Source: a virus
Length of the DNA stretch: 40,587 nucleotides
Virus record (IMG/VR): IMGVR_UViG_3300006753_000017
Coordinates: 1-40,587 of that record
Reading direction: 5' to 3' (one strand)
Below the pieces are notes generated by a model. It ran no database searches. It was not told the origin of the DNA and worked only from the letters and a program-made list of their open reading frames with translations. Each line of letters begins with the position of its first letter. Within the stretch, counting starts at the first letter, position 1. The position numbers and the translations under genes were made by a program. Positions 16,192 to 38,927 of this stretch are shown piece by piece.

Positions 16192-16399
16192 GTATGAGGG
16201 TCACGACTGTGACGATGAGGGTTGTGAGGCTAGTGCGGAGGCGTGGGAGGCTGTCCACTTCCCTCATGGTCGCAAGGGCGTGGATGAGTGGGACTCTCTC
16301 TCCCCTCTCTCTCATCAATCGAAGATTGATGATGAGAGAGAGGGAGAGAGGTTTCCGATGATTGACGGTTTCCGCGATGCACAGGAGGTGCTGAGATGA
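16184..16399 (+). CDS. Hypothetical acidic early protein, 71 aa
   Basis: The start chosen is GTG 16184, with GGGAGGA upstream and an 8-nt overlap with the preceding gene; a longer reading from 16157 is possible. The N-terminal half is rich in Asp, Glu, Cys and His (EGHDCDDEGCEASAEAWEAVHFPHG). The second half is encoded by a long hairpin (16294-16350), giving SLSPLSHQSKIDDEREGERF. The end overlaps the next start by ATGA. The function is unknown; the region may be constrained by RNA structure as much as by protein. Confidence 0.6.
   Translation: MLEYEGHDCDDEGCEASAEAWEAVHFPHGRKGVDEWDSLSPLSHQSKIDDEREGERFPMIDGFRDAQEVLR
16294..16350 (+). repeat. Long coding hairpin with TC/GA arms
   Basis: A stem of about 24 bp with small bulges closes a GAA loop (16321-16323). 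The inner 9-bp stem (TCATCAATC with its complement) is followed by a 3-nt bulge on the right arm, as in the hairpin before the first early gene. The outer part is CCCTCTCTCTC with its complement. It lies inside gene 16184-16399. Confidence 0.85.
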
Positions 16400-16713
16400 T
16401 TGACGTAACGTGTGTGGATGCGAATGAGGGCTTGTATGCCATGTTCATGGATGATGAGGGTGTTGATACGTTGGTAGGTGCGCTGGTGTGGTTGGCGGAT
16501 GCGGTAGCGGATAGGACGCCGCTCCCGTCTACGCTGAATCGCATCTGGGGGGAGTTGGAGGATGTGCAGGAGTGGGCACAGACGCGTATGGAGGAGATGA
16601 TGGATGAACATGGGGAAGGAACGGACTGTGCGTGTCCTGTCTGTGTGGAGATGGCAGAGGTGCACAATGCGGCAATGGATGACAATGAAGAACAGCAGAT
16701 AGGCTCGTTGTAG
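16396..16713 (+). CDS. Hypothetical acidic early protein, 105 aa
   Basis: ATG 16396 overlaps the upstream stop (ATGA) and has AGGAGG at the correct distance. The protein is strongly acidic and helical (ANEGLYAMFMDDEGVDTLVG, EDVQEWAQTRMEEMMDEHG), with a Cys-rich patch TDCACPVCVE that could bind a metal. It has no recognised family. A small acidic protein in the early block could mimic DNA or bind a host enzyme; this is speculative. Confidence 0.7.
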   Translation: MIDVTCVDANEGLYAMFMDDEGVDTLVGALVWLADAVADRTPLPSTLNRIWGELEDVQEWAQTRMEEMMDEHGEGTDCACPVCVEMAEVHNAAMDDNEEQQIGSL

Positions 16714-16967
16714 CGAGGGTAAATAGGCTTTAGGCTGCAAGCGGCACCCGTGTGGTGCGTGGCATCGGGTTACCTACGGTTGTAGACGTAGGTGCGCAGG
16801 GCTACATCCTTGTGTGGGAACTGAACGAGTGCTCATGGTTCCTAAGCCCGTGTAAGTCCCTGAAAGGAAACGTAAACACAGGTAGTGTGTGTAGGAGTTG
16901 CCTGTCCCTGCGCATAGCGTTGCCTGTCCAAAAAGCGGTAGGGTTTGTCCCCCGCAACAGGCGCCAC

Positions 16968-17047
16968 GGGGGTGGTTCTGGTTTCGACGCAAGTGAAAGC
17001 CGCATGTCGGACGCTTGTGGACAGGGGTTCGATTCCCCTCACCTCCA
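16968..17047 (+). ncRNA. Mini-tmRNA: tRNA-like domain without mRNA-like domain
   Basis: The 5' end (GGGGGUG at 16968-16974) pairs with CACCUCC (17040-17046) in a 7-bp acceptor stem containing G3-U70, the alanine identity pair, followed by discriminator A 17047. Next to the 5' arm is UUCUGGUUUCGACG, closely matching the conserved D-loop part of tmRNA. The T arm (AGGGG UUCGAUU CCCCU, 17023-17039) is standard, preceded by GUGGAC as in tmRNA. In true tmRNA about 250-300 nt separate the two ends; here only about 30 nt do, and the resume codon, tag reading frame and pseudoknots are absent. CCA is not encoded. CGCAAG/CUUGUG (about 16988-17019) may form a shortened P2 stem. Confidence 0.75.
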
Positions 17048-17156
17048 CTTGGAGGGTGTACGTTCACCGTGGTAGTTGCAGCGGGAACTTAGCCTAGCCG
17101 TGCGTGAAGTATGCCTTTATGGATGAAGCGCCGAAATTGAGCGGTTAGCCGTGTTG

Positions 17157-17240
17157 GGTGGCACCCTCCTTCTACCCGCAGCACAATCGGTTGCGGCGAA
17201 TGGGGAGGGTGTGCCTGTCCTAAGCAGGTGGCACCCTCCT
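17157..17240 (+). repeat. Paired GGTGGCACCCTCCT repeat with internal complement
   Basis: The 14-nt sequence GGTGGCACCCTCCT occurs at 17157-17170 and 17227-17240. Between them GGAGGGTG (about 17205-17212) is complementary to CACCCTCC in either copy, so two mutually exclusive hairpins are possible, a layout seen in attenuators and other switching RNAs. The gene downstream starts at 17426. Confidence 0.5.
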
Positions 17241-17425
17241 CGCTGCATGTGCTTGTTCAGGGGGTTGGGCCGTCTTTGCCCCGTTGTCAACCAACAGACG
17301 AGCCACGGGGAGTCGCCAGTCCCACGTAGCGTACGGCTTAGTTACCGTACAGGTGCTTGCATCAACTGGCACGTTCTGCATGAGTATGCATTGGCAATGA
17401 ATAGGCGCTTACAGGAGGTAAGAGC

Positions 17426-29423: not shown

Positions 29424-32400
29424 CTACGGGTTTTCGTTTTGGCTTTCGCGTATTAACTGGCGCATGTCTTGCAACTCTTCTACCTCTTTCCAATACGCAG
29501 CATCAATAACGCGCTGCTGCTCTTCAAGCGTATTGGTACGCAAACCCATACCGAACGCGAAACTCATCCACGTTGACAATGTACGTTGCTGATACCTCTC
29601 CTCCGACGGAAACAGCCGTCGCATGTCCGTGAACGTGGGCAACAATTGCCCCATCGTGTGTAATTCATAATCGCGCATCAACCAAACATCGTTTTGTTTC
29701 TCAGCCAACCCAAGGGTGTCCAACATCGGCATCAACAACGGAATGTTTCGATACGCAGTGGGTACCTGCTGATACCGACCATCGAACGAATACCCTTTCC
29801 ATAAATTCTGCTTGGCTTTCCACTCATACGGTGCCTTGATCAACGGTGTAATCTGAGTACCCACACTACCCAACATCACCTGAATACGATCCGTAACCGA
29901 CATGTCCTTGTCAAACGCCAACGCAGGATCAATCAACTCCAACGGAGTCTTGAACGGCAAGTCAGGCAGAACAAACATGTTCTGACCCTTATACTTGAAC
30001 GGCAACTGAATCGCACCCTGCCGAATAAAATACGGAGGCACAATCGCCGCCTTTTCCTGCCCCATCTCAATGTTGCGCTTTGCCTTCAAATACATCGACA
30101 TCTTCGCAGGGTTCTTCCCAACCTGCTCAATCATCAACGGTAGCGCGTGCTTCGTCCACGTATAGAACGGAATAAGACGCTTGATGACCTTGGACTCAAA
30201 GGCCGACAGGTCACTATAGTCGAAGTGCCATTTCGTAATCGCATCGAAAGCATCGTCAACGGTGCCGTTGCTATGCTTCAAGACATCGAATCCCAACACG
30301 CCGCGTACATAGGTTTCAGTTCCAACACCGACGTTGCGCGACAGCCGCAATGGAGCGTTCCGCGAATTGAACGGATTGACCGTACCCCACGCACGACGAA
30401 ACCCGCCTTGCTCCAACGGAGACTGTAGAAACTCTGCCGCAACCTGACCACTGGAACCACCTAGAATGTTACCCTCATACATCTCGCGTACAATCGCAAC
30501 ATCGTCAGCATTGACATTGCCCCAAACGCCACGCTTCTTCATCGAAGCCTTCATCGAATTAGCCCTACGAGTCATCCCCTGCTCAACCGCAAGGTCATAC
30601 TGGAACTTCCAATACGCACGCTGAAACTGGCGATAACTACTGAACTTCACACCATGCAAGAAATTCATAAACGTTGCAGAAAAGAAGTTACGCATATGGA
30701 AACCGGGCTTGGCAATCATGTAGCCTTTAAGCAGGTTGTGAACCTTGTCATAGTGGCGTAGGAATTCACCCCATCCGCCCTGCGCATTGAAGCGTGTCAC
30801 GGCAGTCATGGCTTCGACCATTGCTTCTGGTCCTTGCGAGTTAGACCCGAAGGCTTTGTACCCTGACATCCATAGTTGCTCTAGGACTTCTTCGCGGTCT
30901 GCGAAGTCGCGGAGCGGGAACCAGAACTCGTCGTCAGAAACGAACTTTTCAAACGGTCCTTCAGCCTTCCCCGCTCGGATCTTTGCTATCCCTTCAAGAC
31001 CTGCCTGCAAATCTTTCCCTACCTCTGACACCTCCGAAGGTGGGAATCCTACCTCCCCGAAAATGCCATCCATTATTCTAGCCTGATGTCTGTAATCAGA
31101 CGGTCTTGCGCCTGCCTTGACGGTTTTTGGCCCTTGGATAGACCACGCCAGCGCGTTGCTGATAGACTGATCTACTTGGTTCACGGTAACCATGTGTATG
31201 TGTGACACCGCTACTGCTATATCTTTAAATATCTCTGCCAACTCGTCGTCAGGGGTCGCCGCCGCATTCGCCCGCAACGCTTCCAACTGTTCCTGCGCCT
31301 TTACCGCATTAGCGACGCGCTCATCTGCCAAGTCCAGTGCAGCATCAGCGCGGTCGAAGTGGTCCCTTGCCCCGTCCCATTGTCCCTTGAGAGCGTCTAC
31401 TTGGTTACGTGCGGTTTGCAATTCTGAACGCGACAGAGCAAGTGCTTTGTTGGTAGCGTCCCGATCCAACAACACTTCAGCCTTTTCTTGCTGCAAGGCT
31501 GCCAACAAATCGGGCTGTTGTGCCTCGTCAAACTCACGGGGCACAAACTGAGCGTTCGCCATTTCCTCGTATTCTCTCAGGAACTGTTCCGCGTTCATAA
31601 AGACATCATGTCCCGTGTCGCCCATCGCACCTGTCTGCCCTCTGAACTTATCCAATTCTGATAGGAGGCCACCAGCGTTTACAGTGTCAGGCATAAGTGC
31701 GCGCGGATTTGTCAACATGAAATTAGACAATATAGGTGCGTCCGCGTGGCCCGCAGCAGTATTCCAACGGGCTCTTTCTTCGTTGAACCAAACAGAAACA
31801 GAGTACCCGTTGTTGTCACTAGCCAAACTGCCCGAAGACAACGACCGCCTGTACGCCTCCAAGAAACGAGCGTGCGTACGAACAGCACCCCTCAATTGTT
31901 CCGTTTCGTACGGCGAACGCGATGGCGCGGACCACCCCTGTTGATCAGGAGGAACGCGAGAAGGAGTCTCCGCTGTTGCCCACCCCCTCGTCCTCCCAGT
32001 ATGCAAAGGACCGCCATGAGACTGCACTGTTGCGCTTGGCTTGAACGTTGCCCTCGCCGCCATCTCACCCGTTTCACGGTGCTGTGCCGCAGTGAACCTA
32101 TGCGCATAGTTGCCCATTTTGACGAAAATATTATGATCTGCGGCTCCTGCAATCGTCTCCATTGGTCCAAGGAGGGAATTAAGAACCTGAGCGTTTTCCG
32201 CTTCAAACCGATTGCCGAAACCTGAACCAACCTTTGACGAATCGTTGCTTATCGAAGCAATGAATGTCAATACGTCCTCCTGAAGTTGCGCCTTGGGTTG
32301 CGCGGCAAGGTTGTCCAAACCCTTTATCAACATGTCGTAGCGAGACAGATCATCCCCCGCCGCTTCCGCAGTCTGGAGTAGCGCCTGCAACGGATTCTCC

Positions 32401-35400
32401 CCTAAAGGCACTGAAACGCCATTGTGCATTGCGTGCAACGCAGACCTGATATTCCCATCGTATGCGCTCTTTGTGTTAAGCCATCCGATGAACGTCATCT
32501 TGTGACGCCATGACATGCCTTCAGGGAAAACTCCGCGAGCCTCCAACGCGGTTACCGTATCAACCACCTTTGCCCCCTGCTTAATCTTTGTGCTGGCTGC
32601 CCAACCATCTTCTTCAATCGTGCTAATAGCCCTACCCGCACGCCAATCATGCACCAACCCTTCCCACAAGTCAGGGTCCACATCGCGGGCACGTTCATAC
32701 ATGTCAAACAGCATGTCGAACTGACCATGTTCCGTAGTAGCGTGACTGTATTGACCCTCGGTTCCGAAGATACCAGCAGCGTTCCCTTCTCCGCTAAGAA
32801 GATTGTCAATCTTGCCTTGAAGCCCTTGCAACTTAGTCAACTGCTCAGGAACTCTAGGATCAAGGCCGTCGGCCTGCTTCACAATAGCCTCCGCTGCACG
32901 CAGACGGTCATGTGCAGGAAGCCCATACACTTTGATACTTGCCGCACCATGCGGCAAGTTGACCCTGAGTTGATGATTGTACCTACCCCCAATCACCATG
33001 TCGTACACGACTGCCATGATGTTCGCATTGGGAGCAGACTGATCTAACCAATTAGCACTGTTGGTACCTAAAAGCCAATGCGGAGCGAAATAGCCACCAT
33101 GACCTGATGCATGGTTCAGCCTCAACAACTGTCTGTGTACCTTCGGGTCGCTTGTGGGAACAGTGTGACCCGAAGAGGTTCCTGCTTTAACCCGTCCAAT
33201 AAAGTAATGAGTTTGTTCAGCACCATGAAACACCTCGGGGACAAACCCGACAAGTTCAACATCAAGGCCCGTTTCCTCATACGCCTCGCGTACAGCAACC
33301 TGCATAGGGTTCTCATCAGCCATACCTGCGGTACGAGTCTGTGGCCCCTTGGAATGCGTCCAACGATTACCCCCGTTGATCTGGCCTGTAGTCGCATCGT
33401 TAGTGGGCATACGCAAATAGACAGAATCTACGCCATCCATAATGACAACACCGTAACTACCCGCCGCTTCCTCCCACGGCACCTCGTCGGCTGTCTTCGG
33501 CAAGAACTCTGTCGCCCGTATGGCAAATGTTTCGGGCGCGGATTTATAGCCCCCTTCTGCGCTCCATGCCACTTCCTCCTGCGACCCTTGTTCAACTTTC
33601 CACACAGCGTAGTCATCGGGACCGACGTTCTCCCTACCAAAGTTGTCAACGGTGTCGACAATCTCAGGGTCTTTCCAAAATGGGTGATCTGGTGGCGGCA
33701 ACGGTTCTTCAGGAGAAGGGATACTCCCAGCAGGAGTCTCCTGCCCCTTCATCAACATCTGCGCCTCTATCAGATCATCTCCCGACAACTGCGCCATCCA
33801 GTCTTCGACATCGTCCGCCTGCTTCGGCCCTGCCTCCGCAGCCACAAACGTTGTCTCATCAATTTCGCTTCTGAACATCCCGTGCATCAAGGTAGGATCG
33901 TCAATGTCTAAAGCGTGGCGGGCTGCCAACATGCGTTCCAGTATCCCGCTTTCCCGCAAATCCCAGACATGCCTCACAACGTCTACGTCGCGGGCCTGCG
34001 CACCAACGTTCTCAGCGTTGCGACCCAACTCGTCAATTGCATCTGTAATCGTAAACGATTCCAACGCTTGACTTTCATGTACTCCACTCGTCCCGCTCTT
34101 GGGGGAAAGCCACGCCCGCAAACCCTGCTCCTCCGACGTTCGCTGCGTCGCTCCATAAGTGCCTGTAAGCGCCTCATCAATCTGTGCGGGACCAACCCCC
34201 GCCCGTGCAAGGGCTTCCCCGATCAGATCGTCGCCCGTGTTGTACGTCAAACCGAAGTCTTCGGCCATCTTCTGAGTGCGTGTTTCCAACCAATCAACAA
34301 ACATGTGAATATCTTCTTCAGGGGCATCTGGCAACTGCTTTCGCACCCACTTGGCCCAGCCCCCATTTGCGGTACGTGCAGTCAACAGGCGGTCAATTTG
34401 CCGCTTCAACTCCCCCGCCATGCCGACTCCGCCTTCAACATCATCGAATGTAGAACGAAACTGCCGCCACATGCTGATAGTCTTCGCCTGATTTCTCTCA
34501 AACTTCAAATCAAAGAAACCTGCGATTTCGTCAACGTTCCTATAGTCATATGATCCACCCTTAAGTTCTCCTTGTGCCCGATAGTGAAACGCTGATCCGT
34601 TGTCCAACCGAAAAACTTCACCCGTCATCTTGTTGACACCGATGTTGTCACCTGCATATCCGACCGCATCAAGGTTCCCGATGAGCATGTCTGTTGCTAT
34701 TTGGTCGCCAAGAAGATCAGACATAGGTGTGTGCACAGTACGGTCAAGCGTTTCAGGAGTGATGTAATCGTGGACATCGCTATAGATTGCGCCGTAAGGA
34801 TGTTCGGAGTACGTTTGAACGATACGGTACGTGCCGTCTGCCATCTTCTCCCGATACTGGTGGGTCATTGGCACATGTATACCTTGAACGAGTTCGTCTT
34901 CCCAATCGGTGGCCTTCCATATGCCCGCAAACTGGCCCTCATCGACCTGACCGTACCAACTCGCAGGGGCAGAACCAGTAACGATTTCGTTGTAGAGGCG
35001 ATCAGCGAGAACTTCGCCGCTTACACGGTGGCGTGCCGCATCAGCGGTCACCCCTGAAGGGTATGCTCCCGCAACATCTACATATCTTTTAACGTAGAAA
35101 CGTTTAATGGTTCCATCAGCCAACGTGTACTTAATCTTGTACCCTTCGTTGGAGCCGCCCTTCACCCCCAAGTCAGAACCAGCATCTTCAGCAAAAGCCA
35201 TTCCCCCGCTCCCCTGCCAACCGTCAATAATCTCCCCATCAGCAAACAATCTACTGATGGGGATGTCGTCTGTCGCAAACGGCATCTGAGAACCGTGGGG
35301 GGCACGTATGATTTCGTTTTGGAACCGCATGAGGTAAGCGACATCAGAGATGGTCAAATTTTCATAGATCAACCCATCGGGTGTCGTCGCCGTAATTACA

Positions 35401-38400
35401 GGCGCATCAGCCAACTGTGTTTCCAAGTGCTGCGCCCGCGCCCGTAAGGAAATCTTCGCAGTTTCTATGTACTGGTCAAGGGCCAACCCGTCGGGGATCG
35501 TGGTCACCGCCCGCGAATCCCCGAAAACGCCATAATACGTGGAAGCCGCATTTACGAATTCAGAATCTTTCATCGCCGTCGGCCATATGTCATCCCACAA
35601 CATATCGCTGGATGGGTCGTTCGCTTGCTTCCACAATTCGTCCAACTTGGTAAGCATCAGCCTCTTTGAATCCGTAACATTCATCGGAGAAGGAATGCTC
35701 CCCACCAGTTGATCAGGGCCAAGGTGCTGAATCCCCTTCTCCAACAGTTCAACCGACCTCTTCACCTGATCGGTCAAAATTGTTCTAGCGGACTCAACCT
35801 GTGACAGCGACGACGCAATCCCCGTAGCGTCCTTAGCCCTTACGTGCATTTCCAAGCCAAGCCAACTCGCCAACCCACTACTATCTAAGTCCCCGACAAT
35901 CGCTTCAACGTTTCCAAGTATCTCAGTTGCTTCATCAGAGTTGACAACTCTGTCCCCGATCTTCAACTCCCACCCGACAACATCAGAAGCCTGCTCGTAC
36001 GCGACGTTTCCAGCCTCATCAACAACGCCAACCTCCGCTGGAGCAACAGTATCGCGGATAGGTGTGAAGCCCTTCTTTCCGTCGCGTGCAGCCGCCATCG
36101 CATATTCGTCTACGCTTCCCCCGACGTACTCATCGAACGAACCAACAAACTTTTCAAACGCTTTCCGATCTCCAAAGACAGTGTATATTTTGTCTTCCAA
36201 AGTCAACGCTGCATAAGTTGCCGCCCGCAACCTGCTCAACTCCAATTCAAACATGGGCTTCGACTTGTACAAATCGTCCAGCACCTTGACGATTTCTTGA
36301 ACCTCACGCTCCATCTCCACAAGGCGCTCAAACGGAGCGCCCTCCATGTCTACACGCAGCCCCCGTTCCCTACCCTCAAGATCAAGAATCCGTTTCTCAA
36401 TAAACATGACCTCCTGTTCAAGCAACAGGAACTCTTGCGCTTTTACGTCATGTGCTTCTACGGCCCGCTTGTACGATTCGTCAGCCATTCGCAGTGTCTC
36501 TCTGGCCTCCACTATCGAGTCCGCTGCATCAGCCTGATCTTTACCAAAGCGTTCTATCGCTACCTTCAACTTGTGATCCAAGTCTGTCTCAGCACGAAGC
36601 AGCGTGGACGCCGCTGAACGAACATCCACGACAGCATCAGTCATTCTGAGGTCAGGGATGTGAACGGCCATTGCCGTACGGTCAAAGAAGACGCCCTGCT
36701 TCTTCATTAGCGTGTCAGTGAATACTTCACCCACACGCTTGGAAATTGCGTCAACGTACACGCTGAGGGCCACCCGCAGGTCTTCGTCAAACAGAGCGTA
36801 GGAGATGCCATGTCGCTCCATGATGTCAGCGATCTGCTTCTCAACGTCTTGAGCGATCTCACCGCTGGGCATCTCCGAACCCGCCTTATACAAGTCTTCC
36901 CCTAAGAAGTCGTGCTGGCGTCCTGACGCACGCACGGCTGCGTCTGCTTCAGCAGGTGACGCACCCTTGGCGACCTGTGCATCAACCAAGAAATCAAATT
37001 CTTCTTTAGAAATATACGAACGTGTCTGTTCAAAGCCACTCTCCTTATATGCATGGCCTTTGTGCGACCTGTTGACAAGCCCCCTACCTTTGGCCTCCAA
37101 ATAGTTACGTGCCTCTTCGGACAAAACGCGAGGAACGTAATCGGAAGAAAGACCAAGGAAATTCTGCCCCGCACGTTCGTTAGCCATTTGACGCAAATCT
37201 CGCATCAACAAACGTCCCTTGTCCGTCAACTCTTGACCAACCCTCGCGGCAGCGTCCTCGCTGCCCGCGATGGCATGGTACAAATCAGCACTATTGGCAC
37301 CCGCCACATCGGCTTCCTTGAAAAAGGCATCCACCTTCCTCAACAGTTCCTGCCGTGTGGTGCGCCCCGCCATGTCGCCCCGTCCAGCAGCGTGCAAAAA
37401 CGCTTTCATGTGATGAACGCCTACAGCGTCACCCTCCTGCATCGCCGTCTTCATCAACTGGCGTATTTCAGGAGCGCGACCACCACGCTTCATCCAACCA
37501 ATCAGTCCACCGTAACCCGTTCCGACCTTCTCCTGTGTTGCTTTGCCAGCCATTTGGGCAGCCTTGGCAACTGGGCCTTTGCCAATAATGTTGCGGCCAA
37601 AGAAGGCAGTACGGGCAGCCTGTGGCACACCACGTACCCACGTACCAATAAACGGTGCCCGCGTGTTAGACCCCCAAAACTTTAACCCAATCGGCTGTTG
37701 CAGTTTGTGGCGGAATATTGCCTTACCGACTCTACCCGTGAATGGAACCCTCCACCCAAATGCAAATGTCAGGTCTTCAACCTCGTCGGCAACAATCCAC
37801 GGATTCGTATAGCCCCTAGTTGCACCTGCTGTTACATCGTCAACGGCGCGAGTCGCTATCTGCGACGGTGAGCGCAGCGAGTTATCCAACTGGCTAGCGG
37901 CAATATGGCGGGCTGCGATACGCATTTCATCGTCGGTGACCGCAGTCGCTCCCCGCCGAATTGCACGGGCACCCGCATCATACAACTTTGTAATATCATC
38001 AATCAAAGCATTATCTAATGTCATAATGAGTGAAGTATCAAGCGGATCGGTCGGACCGTGAACACCACCCAACCTGTTCAAATCCAACTCAACGACATCA
38101 TCAGAAACCCGCGTAACAAAGTTATCGGTTCCCTTTACAAGATCGTCAGCAACCCCACGCATGACATTATCGTCCAACAATCTAGTGTTTCGGAATAACC
38201 CACCGAACACCCTGCCAGCATCATCGCCTACATGGGAAATAATCGCCTTACGGACAGCGTGACCACCGATAATACGGGCACCTTCGCCCGTCAATTTAGC
38301 CCCGATACCGATTGCCTTGCCAACCAAGCCAAGCCAAGTCAACGGATCAAGCGCAACATCACCCGCAAAGCCAGCCAGCCGTGCCCACTTCAAATTCTCA

Positions 38401-38927
38401 GGTTCCTGCCAAACGTCGAAATCGGCAAGCATCTCACCAAACGTATAGGTGCCCCCAATCTTGTCCCAAGCATCCCCCCAACTCAGACCACCCTCTTCGG
38501 GACGCTTCCTGACAACATTCTCCACAAGCAAACGAGTACCCGTAACCGCAACAGTTAGAGGCTTCATCAAATACTCTAACGCAGTAGCAAACGGACCCTC
38601 CGTCATCGCCTGACCTGCGTCGTAGGCGAGTTTTTCATGCCACGGCAACTGTTCAATCGCAGTATCATGCTGCGCTTGCCGTATCCACTCCTGAACCCTT
38701 AGGGTTGGTTCCCAACCCGAATGTGCAACTGGCCCCTCAAGCCCCAAAACCCGCTGCAACGCATTCGTTGTCGTTGGCTCTCGGTACCTTCCAGCAGACG
38801 GCTTAATCGTTGGGGGAGTAACGCGCTTACTTTTGATCTTCGGCTTGATGTCAGGCGGAGCCAGAGCCTCCGCCGCCCGAAGACGAACATTGGGAGGACC
38901 AGCAGCCTGACTCGGCGGGCGAGCCAT
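29424..38927 (-). CDS. Giant multidomain virion-type protein, 3167 aa
   Basis: This gene takes up nearly a quarter of the genome. The N-terminal 750 residues are helical with basic stretches (RVTPPTIKPSAGRYREPTT; SHKGHAYKESGFEQ). Residues about 775-890 and 2470-2560 are long coiled coils. Residues about 1225-1480 resemble an atypical kinase fold: FYVKRYV, a helix with EVLADRLY, DMLIGNLDAVGYAGDN and VFRLDNGS. Residues about 1830-1960 contain a Nudix-type core (REAYEETGL). Residues 2735-2960 (GFHMRNFFSATFMNFLHG; FYTWTKHALPLMIEQVGKNP) resemble the C-terminus of large podovirus internal or ejection proteins. Located between the repeat-rich gene and the endolysin, it is probably packaged in the virion and ejected with the DNA. 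Confidence 0.85.
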   Translation of the reverse strand: MARPPSQAAGPPNVRLRAAEALAPPDIKPKIKSKRVTPPTIKPSAGRYREPTTTNALQRVLGLEGPVAHSGWEPTLRVQEWIRQAQHDTAIEQLPWHEKLAYDAGQAMTEGPFATALEYLMKPLTVAVTGTRLLVENVVRKRPEEGGLSWGDAWDKIGGTYTFGEMLADFDVWQEPENLKWARLAGFAGDVALDPLTWLGLVGKAIGIGAKLTGEGARIIGGHAVRKAIISHVGDDAGRVFGGLFRNTRLLDDNVMRGVADDLVKGTDNFVTRVSDDVVELDLNRLGGVHGPTDPLDTSLIMTLDNALIDDITKLYDAGARAIRRGATAVTDDEMRIAARHIAASQLDNSLRSPSQIATRAVDDVTAGATRGYTNPWIVADEVEDLTFAFGWRVPFTGRVGKAIFRHKLQQPIGLKFWGSNTRAPFIGTWVRGVPQAARTAFFGRNIIGKGPVAKAAQMAGKATQEKVGTGYGGLIGWMKRGGRAPEIRQLMKTAMQEGDAVGVHHMKAFLHAAGRGDMAGRTTRQELLRKVDAFFKEADVAGANSADLYHAIAGSEDAAARVGQELTDKGRLLMRDLRQMANERAGQNFLGLSSDYVPRVLSEEARNYLEAKGRGLVNRSHKGHAYKESGFEQTRSYISKEEFDFLVDAQVAKGASPAEADAAVRASGRQHDFLGEDLYKAGSEMPSGEIAQDVEKQIADIMERHGISYALFDEDLRVALSVYVDAISKRVGEVFTDTLMKKQGVFFDRTAMAVHIPDLRMTDAVVDVRSAASTLLRAETDLDHKLKVAIERFGKDQADAADSIVEARETLRMADESYKRAVEAHDVKAQEFLLLEQEVMFIEKRILDLEGRERGLRVDMEGAPFERLVEMEREVQEIVKVLDDLYKSKPMFELELSRLRAATYAALTLEDKIYTVFGDRKAFEKFVGSFDEYVGGSVDEYAMAAARDGKKGFTPIRDTVAPAEVGVVDEAGNVAYEQASDVVGWELKIGDRVVNSDEATEILGNVEAIVGDLDSSGLASWLGLEMHVRAKDATGIASSLSQVESARTILTDQVKRSVELLEKGIQHLGPDQLVGSIPSPMNVTDSKRLMLTKLDELWKQANDPSSDMLWDDIWPTAMKDSEFVNAASTYYGVFGDSRAVTTIPDGLALDQYIETAKISLRARAQHLETQLADAPVITATTPDGLIYENLTISDVAYLMRFQNEIIRAPHGSQMPFATDDIPISRLFADGEIIDGWQGSGGMAFAEDAGSDLGVKGGSNEGYKIKYTLADGTIKRFYVKRYVDVAGAYPSGVTADAARHRVSGEVLADRLYNEIVTGSAPASWYGQVDEGQFAGIWKATDWEDELVQGIHVPMTHQYREKMADGTYRIVQTYSEHPYGAIYSDVHDYITPETLDRTVHTPMSDLLGDQIATDMLIGNLDAVGYAGDNIGVNKMTGEVFRLDNGSAFHYRAQGELKGGSYDYRNVDEIAGFFDLKFERNQAKTISMWRQFRSTFDDVEGGVGMAGELKRQIDRLLTARTANGGWAKWVRKQLPDAPEEDIHMFVDWLETRTQKMAEDFGLTYNTGDDLIGEALARAGVGPAQIDEALTGTYGATQRTSEEQGLRAWLSPKSGTSGVHESQALESFTITDAIDELGRNAENVGAQARDVDVVRHVWDLRESGILERMLAARHALDIDDPTLMHGMFRSEIDETTFVAAEAGPKQADDVEDWMAQLSGDDLIEAQMLMKGQETPAGSIPSPEEPLPPPDHPFWKDPEIVDTVDNFGRENVGPDDYAVWKVEQGSQEEVAWSAEGGYKSAPETFAIRATEFLPKTADEVPWEEAAGSYGVVIMDGVDSVYLRMPTNDATTGQINGGNRWTHSKGPQTRTAGMADENPMQVAVREAYEETGLDVELVGFVPEVFHGAEQTHYFIGRVKAGTSSGHTVPTSDPKVHRQLLRLNHASGHGGYFAPHWLLGTNSANWLDQSAPNANIMAVVYDMVIGGRYNHQLRVNLPHGAASIKVYGLPAHDRLRAAEAIVKQADGLDPRVPEQLTKLQGLQGKIDNLLSGEGNAAGIFGTEGQYSHATTEHGQFDMLFDMYERARDVDPDLWEGLVHDWRAGRAISTIEEDGWAASTKIKQGAKVVDTVTALEARGVFPEGMSWRHKMTFIGWLNTKSAYDGNIRSALHAMHNGVSVPLGENPLQALLQTAEAAGDDLSRYDMLIKGLDNLAAQPKAQLQEDVLTFIASISNDSSKVGSGFGNRFEAENAQVLNSLLGPMETIAGAADHNIFVKMGNYAHRFTAAQHRETGEMAARATFKPSATVQSHGGPLHTGRTRGWATAETPSRVPPDQQGWSAPSRSPYETEQLRGAVRTHARFLEAYRRSLSSGSLASDNNGYSVSVWFNEERARWNTAAGHADAPILSNFMLTNPRALMPDTVNAGGLLSELDKFRGQTGAMGDTGHDVFMNAEQFLREYEEMANAQFVPREFDEAQQPDLLAALQQEKAEVLLDRDATNKALALSRSELQTARNQVDALKGQWDGARDHFDRADAALDLADERVANAVKAQEQLEALRANAAATPDDELAEIFKDIAVAVSHIHMVTVNQVDQSISNALAWSIQGPKTVKAGARPSDYRHQARIMDGIFGEVGFPPSEVSEVGKDLQAGLEGIAKIRAGKAEGPFEKFVSDDEFWFPLRDFADREEVLEQLWMSGYKAFGSNSQGPEAMVEAMTAVTRFNAQGGWGEFLRHYDKVHNLLKGYMIAKPGFHMRNFFSATFMNFLHGVKFSSYRQFQRAYWKFQYDLAVEQGMTRRANSMKASMKKRGVWGNVNADDVAIVREMYEGNILGGSSGQVAAEFLQSPLEQGGFRRAWGTVNPFNSRNAPLRLSRNVGVGTETYVRGVLGFDVLKHSNGTVDDAFDAITKWHFDYSDLSAFESKVIKRLIPFYTWTKHALPLMIEQVGKNPAKMSMYLKAKRNIEMGQEKAAIVPPYFIRQGAIQLPFKYKGQNMFVLPDLPFKTPLELIDPALAFDKDMSVTDRIQVMLGSVGTQITPLIKAPYEWKAKQNLWKGYSFDGRYQQVPTAYRNIPLLMPMLDTLGLAEKQNDVWLMRDYELHTMGQLLPTFTDMRRLFPSEERYQQRTLSTWMSFAFGMGLRTNTLEEQQRVIDAAYWKEVEELQDMRQLIRESQNENP
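33210..33440 (-). other. Nudix-like segment in the giant protein
   Basis: The order GMADENPMQVAV followed by REAYEETGLDV has the RExxEExG core of the Nudix box. The spacing between the first Gly and the next Glu is shorter than in the canonical Gx5E pattern, so this is Nudix-like rather than certain. Nudix enzymes cleave nucleoside diphosphates linked to another moiety, such as NAD or ADP-ribose. A virion-delivered Nudix could act on host nucleotides at the start of infection. Confidence 0.6.
34490..35250 (-). other. Kinase-like segment in the giant protein
   Basis: Residues about 1225-1480 hold, in order, a Gly-rich segment (DGWQGSGGM), a strand with Lys (RFYVKRYV), a helix with Glu (GEVLADRLY), a catalytic-loop-like DMLIGNLDAVGYAGDN and a metal-binding-like FRLDNGS. 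This order resembles HipA/Fam20-type atypical kinases (K, E, D-x-x-x-x-N-x-D...N, then DNG). Catalytic activity is not proven from sequence; the resemblance is by motif order only. Confidence 0.45.

Follow-up and report, generated by a model that had tools for sequence, protein, structure and literature searches.

A phage-borne tmRNA cut down to its tRNA-like domain belongs to a family with conserved alanine identity

What use could a phage make of a transfer-messenger RNA (tmRNA) that carries no message? The question is raised by an 80-nt element on the plus strand of IMG/VR virus record IMGVR_UViG_3300006753_000017, of which positions 1 to 40,587, the whole stretch analysed here, are referred to as the window. 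An initial annotation, made from the letters alone, had placed at 16968-17047 a mini-tmRNA that has alanine identity but lacks an mRNA-like domain, and these coordinates proved exact. The element is almost certainly a phage-borne tmRNA cut down to its tRNA-like domain, as judged from its match to the tmRNA model and from a family of similar elements in other phages.

Anatomy and lineage of the window element

The Rfam tmRNA model (RF00023) matches positions 16968-17050 of the plus strand over model positions 1-374 (70 bits, E 2.2e-25). Both model ends are matched, bearing out the close resemblance to the two ends of tmRNA noted initially, and 306 model positions are replaced by 14 nt. The parts are as follows.

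16968..17047, plus strand: mini-tmRNA, tRNA-like domain only (Rfam RF00023 and the independent covariance model R1)
16968..16974, plus strand: 5' strand of the acceptor stem, GGGGGUG, G3 included (from the sequence; G3-U70 in 74/74 family representatives)
16988..17019, plus strand: P2 arm, CGCAAG / CUUGUG, and a short apical hairpin around GAAAGCCGCAUGUCGGAC, replacing the mRNA-like domain
17023..17039, plus strand: T arm, AGGGG-UUCGAUU-CCCCU (covariance model alignment; T-stem covariation in the family)
17040..17047, plus strand: 3' strand of the acceptor stem, CACCUCC (with U70), and discriminator A73 (from the sequence)

They run in the order acceptor, D-loop-like UGGUUUCGAC, P2 with its apical hairpin, GGAC, T arm and A73, and all of the elements listed in the initial annotation are present in the sequence (acceptor stem GGGGGUG/CACCUCC with G3-U70, D-loop region UUCUGGUUUCGACG, GUGGAC and discriminator A). 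CCA is not encoded, and CUU follows directly after the discriminator. G3-U70 together with A73 constitutes the alanine identity of tRNA-Ala and of tmRNA, and the window copy has both on a 7-bp acceptor stem. Its body is also of the tmRNA type, with a reduced D arm containing UUCGAC, P2 at the place of the anticodon stem, GGAC and a T arm. This copy lacks the mRNA-like domain and with it the resume codon, tag frame and stop; the short hairpin closes P2 instead. Pseudoknots are absent as well because the approximately 30 nt between the halves leave no room for them. The absence of tag frame and pseudoknots had been described initially.

Other identities were considered and rejected. ARAGORN reports neither a tRNA nor a tmRNA in the window, and P2 with its apical hairpin stands where the cloverleaf of a tRNA-Ala would have an anticodon arm and 7-nt loop. 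A permuted two-piece tmRNA does not fit either, as the 5' half precedes the 3' half and the corresponding model (RF04321) reaches only 23.3 bits, short of its cut-off of 47. Chance resemblance is excluded because covariance model R1, built from 18 elements of other phages and none of the window lineage, finds the window copy with 74.7 bits (E 4.5e-17); ordinary tRNAs score about 25 bits or less with this model.

The mini-tmRNA is present in five further contigs of the window phage lineage (L064, L275, L276, L277 and L279), in four of which (L275, L276, L277 and L279) the neighbouring protein is 85-89% identical to that of the window; L020, L043, L057 and L078 are other cuts of the same lineage contigs and are not counted again. 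All close relatives that cover the region carry the element, and no match to it was found in the distant relatives L286, L287 and L288 (42-45% protein identity), which also cover it. Phages with annotated full-length tmRNAs do exist, and an assembly or deletion artefact of such a gene had been named at the outset as a danger to the interpretation. It is exceedingly improbable: several contigs carry the same 80-nt element, which rules out assembly deletion, and in more than 100 other contigs the place of the mRNA-like domain is likewise taken by a short apical hairpin of similar kind. The acceptor stem, whose loss in relatives had been named as a further danger, is kept in them. A different phage, as judged by flanks and terminase (L186), carries a mini-tmRNA 94% identical to the window's, and in L077 (13747-13836) near-identical flanking blocks surround a copy whose P2 and apical part are swapped for unrelated sequence but whose acceptor and T arm are retained.

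Five related contigs (L013, L019, L031, L052 and L068) share a similar context for the element, and in L031 an open reading frame (ORF; 848-1750) stays open through the embedded mini-tmRNA. Among these five the element is 97.5-100% identical, compared to 51-94% (ungapped) for the upstream 160 nt and 82-100% for the next 55 nt downstream, and this better conservation than that of its surroundings suggests selection on the RNA. The product of the L031 ORF has no PHROG match. Processing of the L031 element in the manner of a tRNA would cut the message that is read through it.

The mini-tmRNA family

A first scan of viral contigs, for two tmRNA halves separated by a short gap and with the 3' acceptor strand left free, returned at least 119 stretches. 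The same pattern applied to one genome per species from 84,980 bacterial and archaeal species returned 28, of which 22 fail an acceptor and T-stem pairing test; L252 was set aside since it looks like an ordinary tRNA, and L258, L260, L263, L267 and L269 are genuine. Among the matches listed for this pattern in the two collections, 86 of 111 distinct sequences pass the pairing test, and these have G3-U70 in 86/86, discriminator A in 85/86, and G-C, A-U or C-G at pair 5-68; GGAC, which was left free, is present in 73/86. The filter itself uses pairing, although G-C at 3-70 would have passed too, and for this reason a second scan was run with the acceptor wholly free. It yielded 63 distinct sequences, with G3-U70 in 62 and A73 in all 63, and compensatory changes at pairs 4, 5 and 6 (G-C, C-G, A-U and U-A). 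The exception to G3-U70, L148, has a deletion near its 3' end relative to its siblings.

Together the two scans give at least 130 distinct mini-tmRNAs, mostly 59-85 nt long, in 76 clusters under 85% identity, of which 74 were parsed as usable representatives; the scans are pattern-limited, and these figures are minimum values rather than a full tally of the family. G3-U70 occurs in every one of the 74. P2 pairs 2-6 are formed in 91.9% of cases in the representatives, compared to 43.0% (standard deviation 2.6) when strands are dealt between sequences, and the covariation score of a uniform 18-sequence alignment is 0.652, whereas shuffling gives 0.149 and sliding no more than 0.117. Pairs of the T stem also covary in the family. 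MAFFT misplaced the 5' acceptor strand in the mixed set because the D-linker varies in length, and pairing was counted instead by script and in the uniform subset. The tmRNA-typical UUCGAC and GGAC are near invariant, the conservation of UUCGAC being partly imposed by the search patterns. In most members P2 (about 6-7 bp) leads through an internal loop rich in A to a short hairpin, and one A and a CC of the apical part are at least 90% conserved (50 diverse sequences); in a smaller group (e.g. L161 and L207) a simple loop closes P2. Neither a tag frame nor a pseudoknot can fit in these RNAs. Comparison of the diverged sequences thus demonstrates selection within the family both for alanine identity and for the tRNA-like fold.

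These patterns bear directly on the suggestion, also made initially, that the element is a captured relic. On this reading, a host ssrA gene taken up at an attachment site would have lost its middle and be decaying. The ssrA gene is a common phage integration site (PMC9004378, PMC11915505). However, 74 diverged sequences show strong compensatory covariation and invariant identity elements, and within the window lineage the mini-tmRNA is 96-100% identical to the window copy while neighbouring modules (a Pistol ribozyme and flank blocks B, C, E and G) are present, partial or missing. The element has both ends of the gene, unlike what a remnant at an attachment site would leave, and there is no integrase among the window proteins tested. 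The covariation effectively refutes decay, and we regard a relic as very improbable.

Members of the family come from a marine podophage lineage, from phages of Streptomyces and Stenotrophomonas, and from phage contigs found in assemblies of Prochlorococcus and flavobacteria (Sinomicrobium). Unannotated copies lie within tRNA clusters just 3' of tRNA-Val in Streptomyces phages BRock, pSt2308, Alone3 and LuckySocke; another was found by similarity in Streptomyces phage GiJojo, and one in Stenotrophomonas virus Jojan60. G3-U70 is kept in BRock (GGGUUUG/CAAAUCC) and Alone3 (GGGUCUG/CAGAUCC) despite changes at other stem pairs. Each of 30 mini-bearing phage records has one tmRNA match clear of the tRNA background, about 62-83 nt long and over the cut-off in 29 (the thirtieth, Alone3, scores 36.8 bits), and in none of the 30 was a full-length tmRNA or SmpB found. 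Three of the four cellular bins that hold a mini-tmRNA also have a full-length tmRNA. Among the copies from the genome collection, L258 lies on a phage contig (terminase, PhoH), and L267 and L269 have PHROG matches of unknown function. In L263 (6776-6856) the element stands among chromosomal cyanobacterial genes of a metagenome-assembled genome contig, beside a gltD-like gene, in a bin with a full-length tmRNA match.

Two other searches are not part of the counts. A loose apical-motif pattern (TCGAC..AAAGCCG..TCGGA) gave only chance matches in viral contigs, almost never with a T arm. Most of what a search with the T-arm and 3' acceptor sequence recovered was permuted tmRNAs of cyanophages or other 3' ends. 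An arrangement like that of a permuted tmRNA (3' piece, short loop, GGGGGTG) is seen at about 2980-3060 of L082/L083 (Synechococcus phage S-CAM1) and in many viral contigs, where it is unannotated or overlaps a hypothetical protein.

Possible roles in ribosome rescue

Trans-translation is an essential pathway in many bacteria and a drug target. We propose that the mini-tmRNA is an alanine-chargeable, SmpB-dependent RNA that interferes with this pathway in the host, a function that is on balance probable. It would be matured by host RNases and the CCA-adding enzyme, charged by the host alanyl-tRNA synthetase (AlaRS) through G3-U70, and delivered by host SmpB and EF-Tu to ribosomes that have stalled at a message end, where it would enter the A site. 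The nascent chain would be transferred to its alanine, with neither a resume codon nor a stop codon on offer, and tagging by the host's own tmRNA would be blocked or short-circuited, the net outcome being dominant-negative interference during infection. The invariant G3-U70 suggests that charging matters, and on that ground entry into the ribosome with acceptance of the nascent chain is a better fit than passive sponging. Competition for AlaRS as a pure decoy, one of the roles first suggested, is unlikely.

The anti-rescue role suggested alongside it is the favoured reading and has an experimental precedent. Mycobacteriophage DS6A (Phage__Mycobacterium.9; Mao 2009; Hudson 2014; Nawrocki 2025) is reported to have a tmRNA consisting of the tRNA-like domain only (PMC4131195, PMC11915505). 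RNA of this type reportedly inhibited E. coli tmRNA strongly, whether or not it could be charged, perhaps by titration of SmpB (PMC4131195, PMC11915505, both citing Mao 2009).

Several observations weigh against our proposal. The reported inhibition in E. coli needed no charging (PMC4131195), yet G3-U70 is invariant in the family; a pure decoy would leave the selection for alanine unexplained, and a positive use of alanine is possible. For the window copy, energy minimisation predicts a fold other than the tRNA-like one (-32.1 versus -30.0 kcal/mol for the tRNA-like fold), and the tRNA-like fold is assigned on covariation and relatives and not on this prediction. No sigma-70 promoter was found near the window mini-tmRNA.

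A positive use of alanine could take the form of tag-less rescue for the benefit of the phage, in which the RNA accepts the chain (perhaps more than once, as it requires no mRNA), adds at least one untemplated alanine, and leaves release to ArfA/ArfB or peptidyl-tRNA hydrolase. This is a tentative alternative that we think rather unlikely, as is its outcome, the recycling of ribosomes without a proteolysis tag. It would account for an invariant alanine identity that is superfluous for a simple decoy, and mitochondrial tmRNAs that lack a tag frame are retained alongside SmpB, with a presumed role in coping with incomplete messages (PMC11915505), but the DS6A-type RNA reportedly inhibited tmRNA in E. 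coli (PMC4131195, PMC11915505). The broader form of the idea is similarly doubtful. In it, a charged messenger-free tmRNA would serve many unrelated phages as an active effector of translation that takes stalled chains and extends them with untemplated alanine; beyond merely soaking up SmpB, it would put a tag-less rescue under phage control in the place of host trans-translation.

Proximity to tRNA genes suggests a different kind of role. Of 71 representatives, 21 have a tRNA gene no more than 1 kb away, versus 7 of 71 random positions, an association that is real but partial, and in Streptomyces phages the elements sit in tRNA clusters as described above. By serving as a sink that can be charged with alanine, they might protect genuine tRNAs against host defence toxins acting on acceptor ends or aminoacyl groups; being anticodon-free, they could not be cut by anticodon nucleases. 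We consider this improbable, since the RNAs retain the GGAC joint and the D-loop region specific to tmRNA, which an acceptor-end decoy could do without, and most mini-tmRNAs are not near tRNAs.

As to interference with trans-translation, such RNAs probably serve many phages as a means of jamming or hijacking host ribosome rescue. The single DS6A curiosity becomes what looks like a common phage strategy against trans-translation, and the invariant G3-U70 poses the question of why an inhibitor must be chargeable. The family is directly testable because cultured phages carry it (BRock, LuckySocke, Alone3, GiJojo and pSt2308; Jojan60).

Genomic surroundings and known systems

The 712-nt flank of the mini-tmRNA, initially called gene-free and structured, has no recognised genes. 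The second part of that description holds less well: the excess of structure is weak overall (z -1.90, with 1/20 shuffles equally stable) apart from a ribozyme that the initial annotation had not named.

16703..16764, plus strand: Pistol self-cleaving ribozyme (Rfam RF02679, 51.4 bits; gathering score 34.5)

It lies upstream of the mini-tmRNA, over the stop codon of ORF 16396-16713, and its cleavage could part the upstream mRNA from the RNA that bears the mini-tmRNA. It is also present in L276 (632-693), L277 (3013-3074) and, by sequence, L077, but is not obligatory for the element, as it was not detected in L279 and L064. Downstream, two blocks (17049-17170 and about 17195-17240) are bounded by GGAGGGTG...CACCCTCC; the first is there or missing as a unit between relatives and resembles a mobile or cassette element. 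A sub-threshold match to the NLPC-P60 RNA (19.4 bits versus 53.7) lies at 17351-17419, with the common GGUGCUUGCAUCA. Some relatives have a second tRNA-like element directly 3' of the mini-tmRNA (L276 about 879-975, L275 about 322-415), with GCACGGG...CCCGTGC, a T arm with a TTCGATT loop, an odd D arm and a 6-nt anticodon-like loop; it folds into a near-cloverleaf (-43.3 kcal/mol) and has no Rfam match at the gathering threshold. Elsewhere in the window a minus-strand ORF of 3167 aa (29424-38927), very large for a 40-kb phage, adjoins an endolysin gene. A portal-protein search found two distant phage relatives and pointed to no clear host, and no SmpB is present in the window record.

RNAs of this kind are already known from DS6A and from organellar tmRNAs without a tag frame. 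Of the 97,179 sequences in the 2025 tmRNA database, 79 are phage tmRNAs and 9 are 'standard, no CDS' forms (PMC11915505), and no phage precedent other than DS6A was found in the open-access literature up to that survey. As far as this literature shows, the size and breadth of the family, its signature of selection and its spread, cultured phages included, appear to be new.

DS6A resembles the present family, by description, in having a phage gene of the tRNA-like domain only; it is, however, one mycobacteriophage sequence described as an exception, whereas the present family spans several phage groups, mostly with a common apical motif. The mitochondrial tmRNAs without an mRNA domain (jakobids and oomycetes; RF02544) and two 65-bp plastid forms likewise lack a tag frame. 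The mitochondrial ones are usually permuted and are kept with SmpB, and the organellar forms are the cell's own gene, unlike the mini-tmRNA, which is brought by a phage into a cell that normally holds a full-length tmRNA. Permuted two-piece phage tmRNAs, as in Methylophilales phage Melnitz, are also phage-encoded ssrA relatives and are common in marine phages (PMC9004378), but they are complete with the coding piece, whereas the mini-tmRNA is unpermuted and has no coding part. With standard bacterial tmRNA (RF00023) it has in common both ends, G3-U70, UUCGAC, GGAC, the T arm and A73, and differs in having no tag frame, no pseudoknots, and a length of about 80 instead of about 350 nt.
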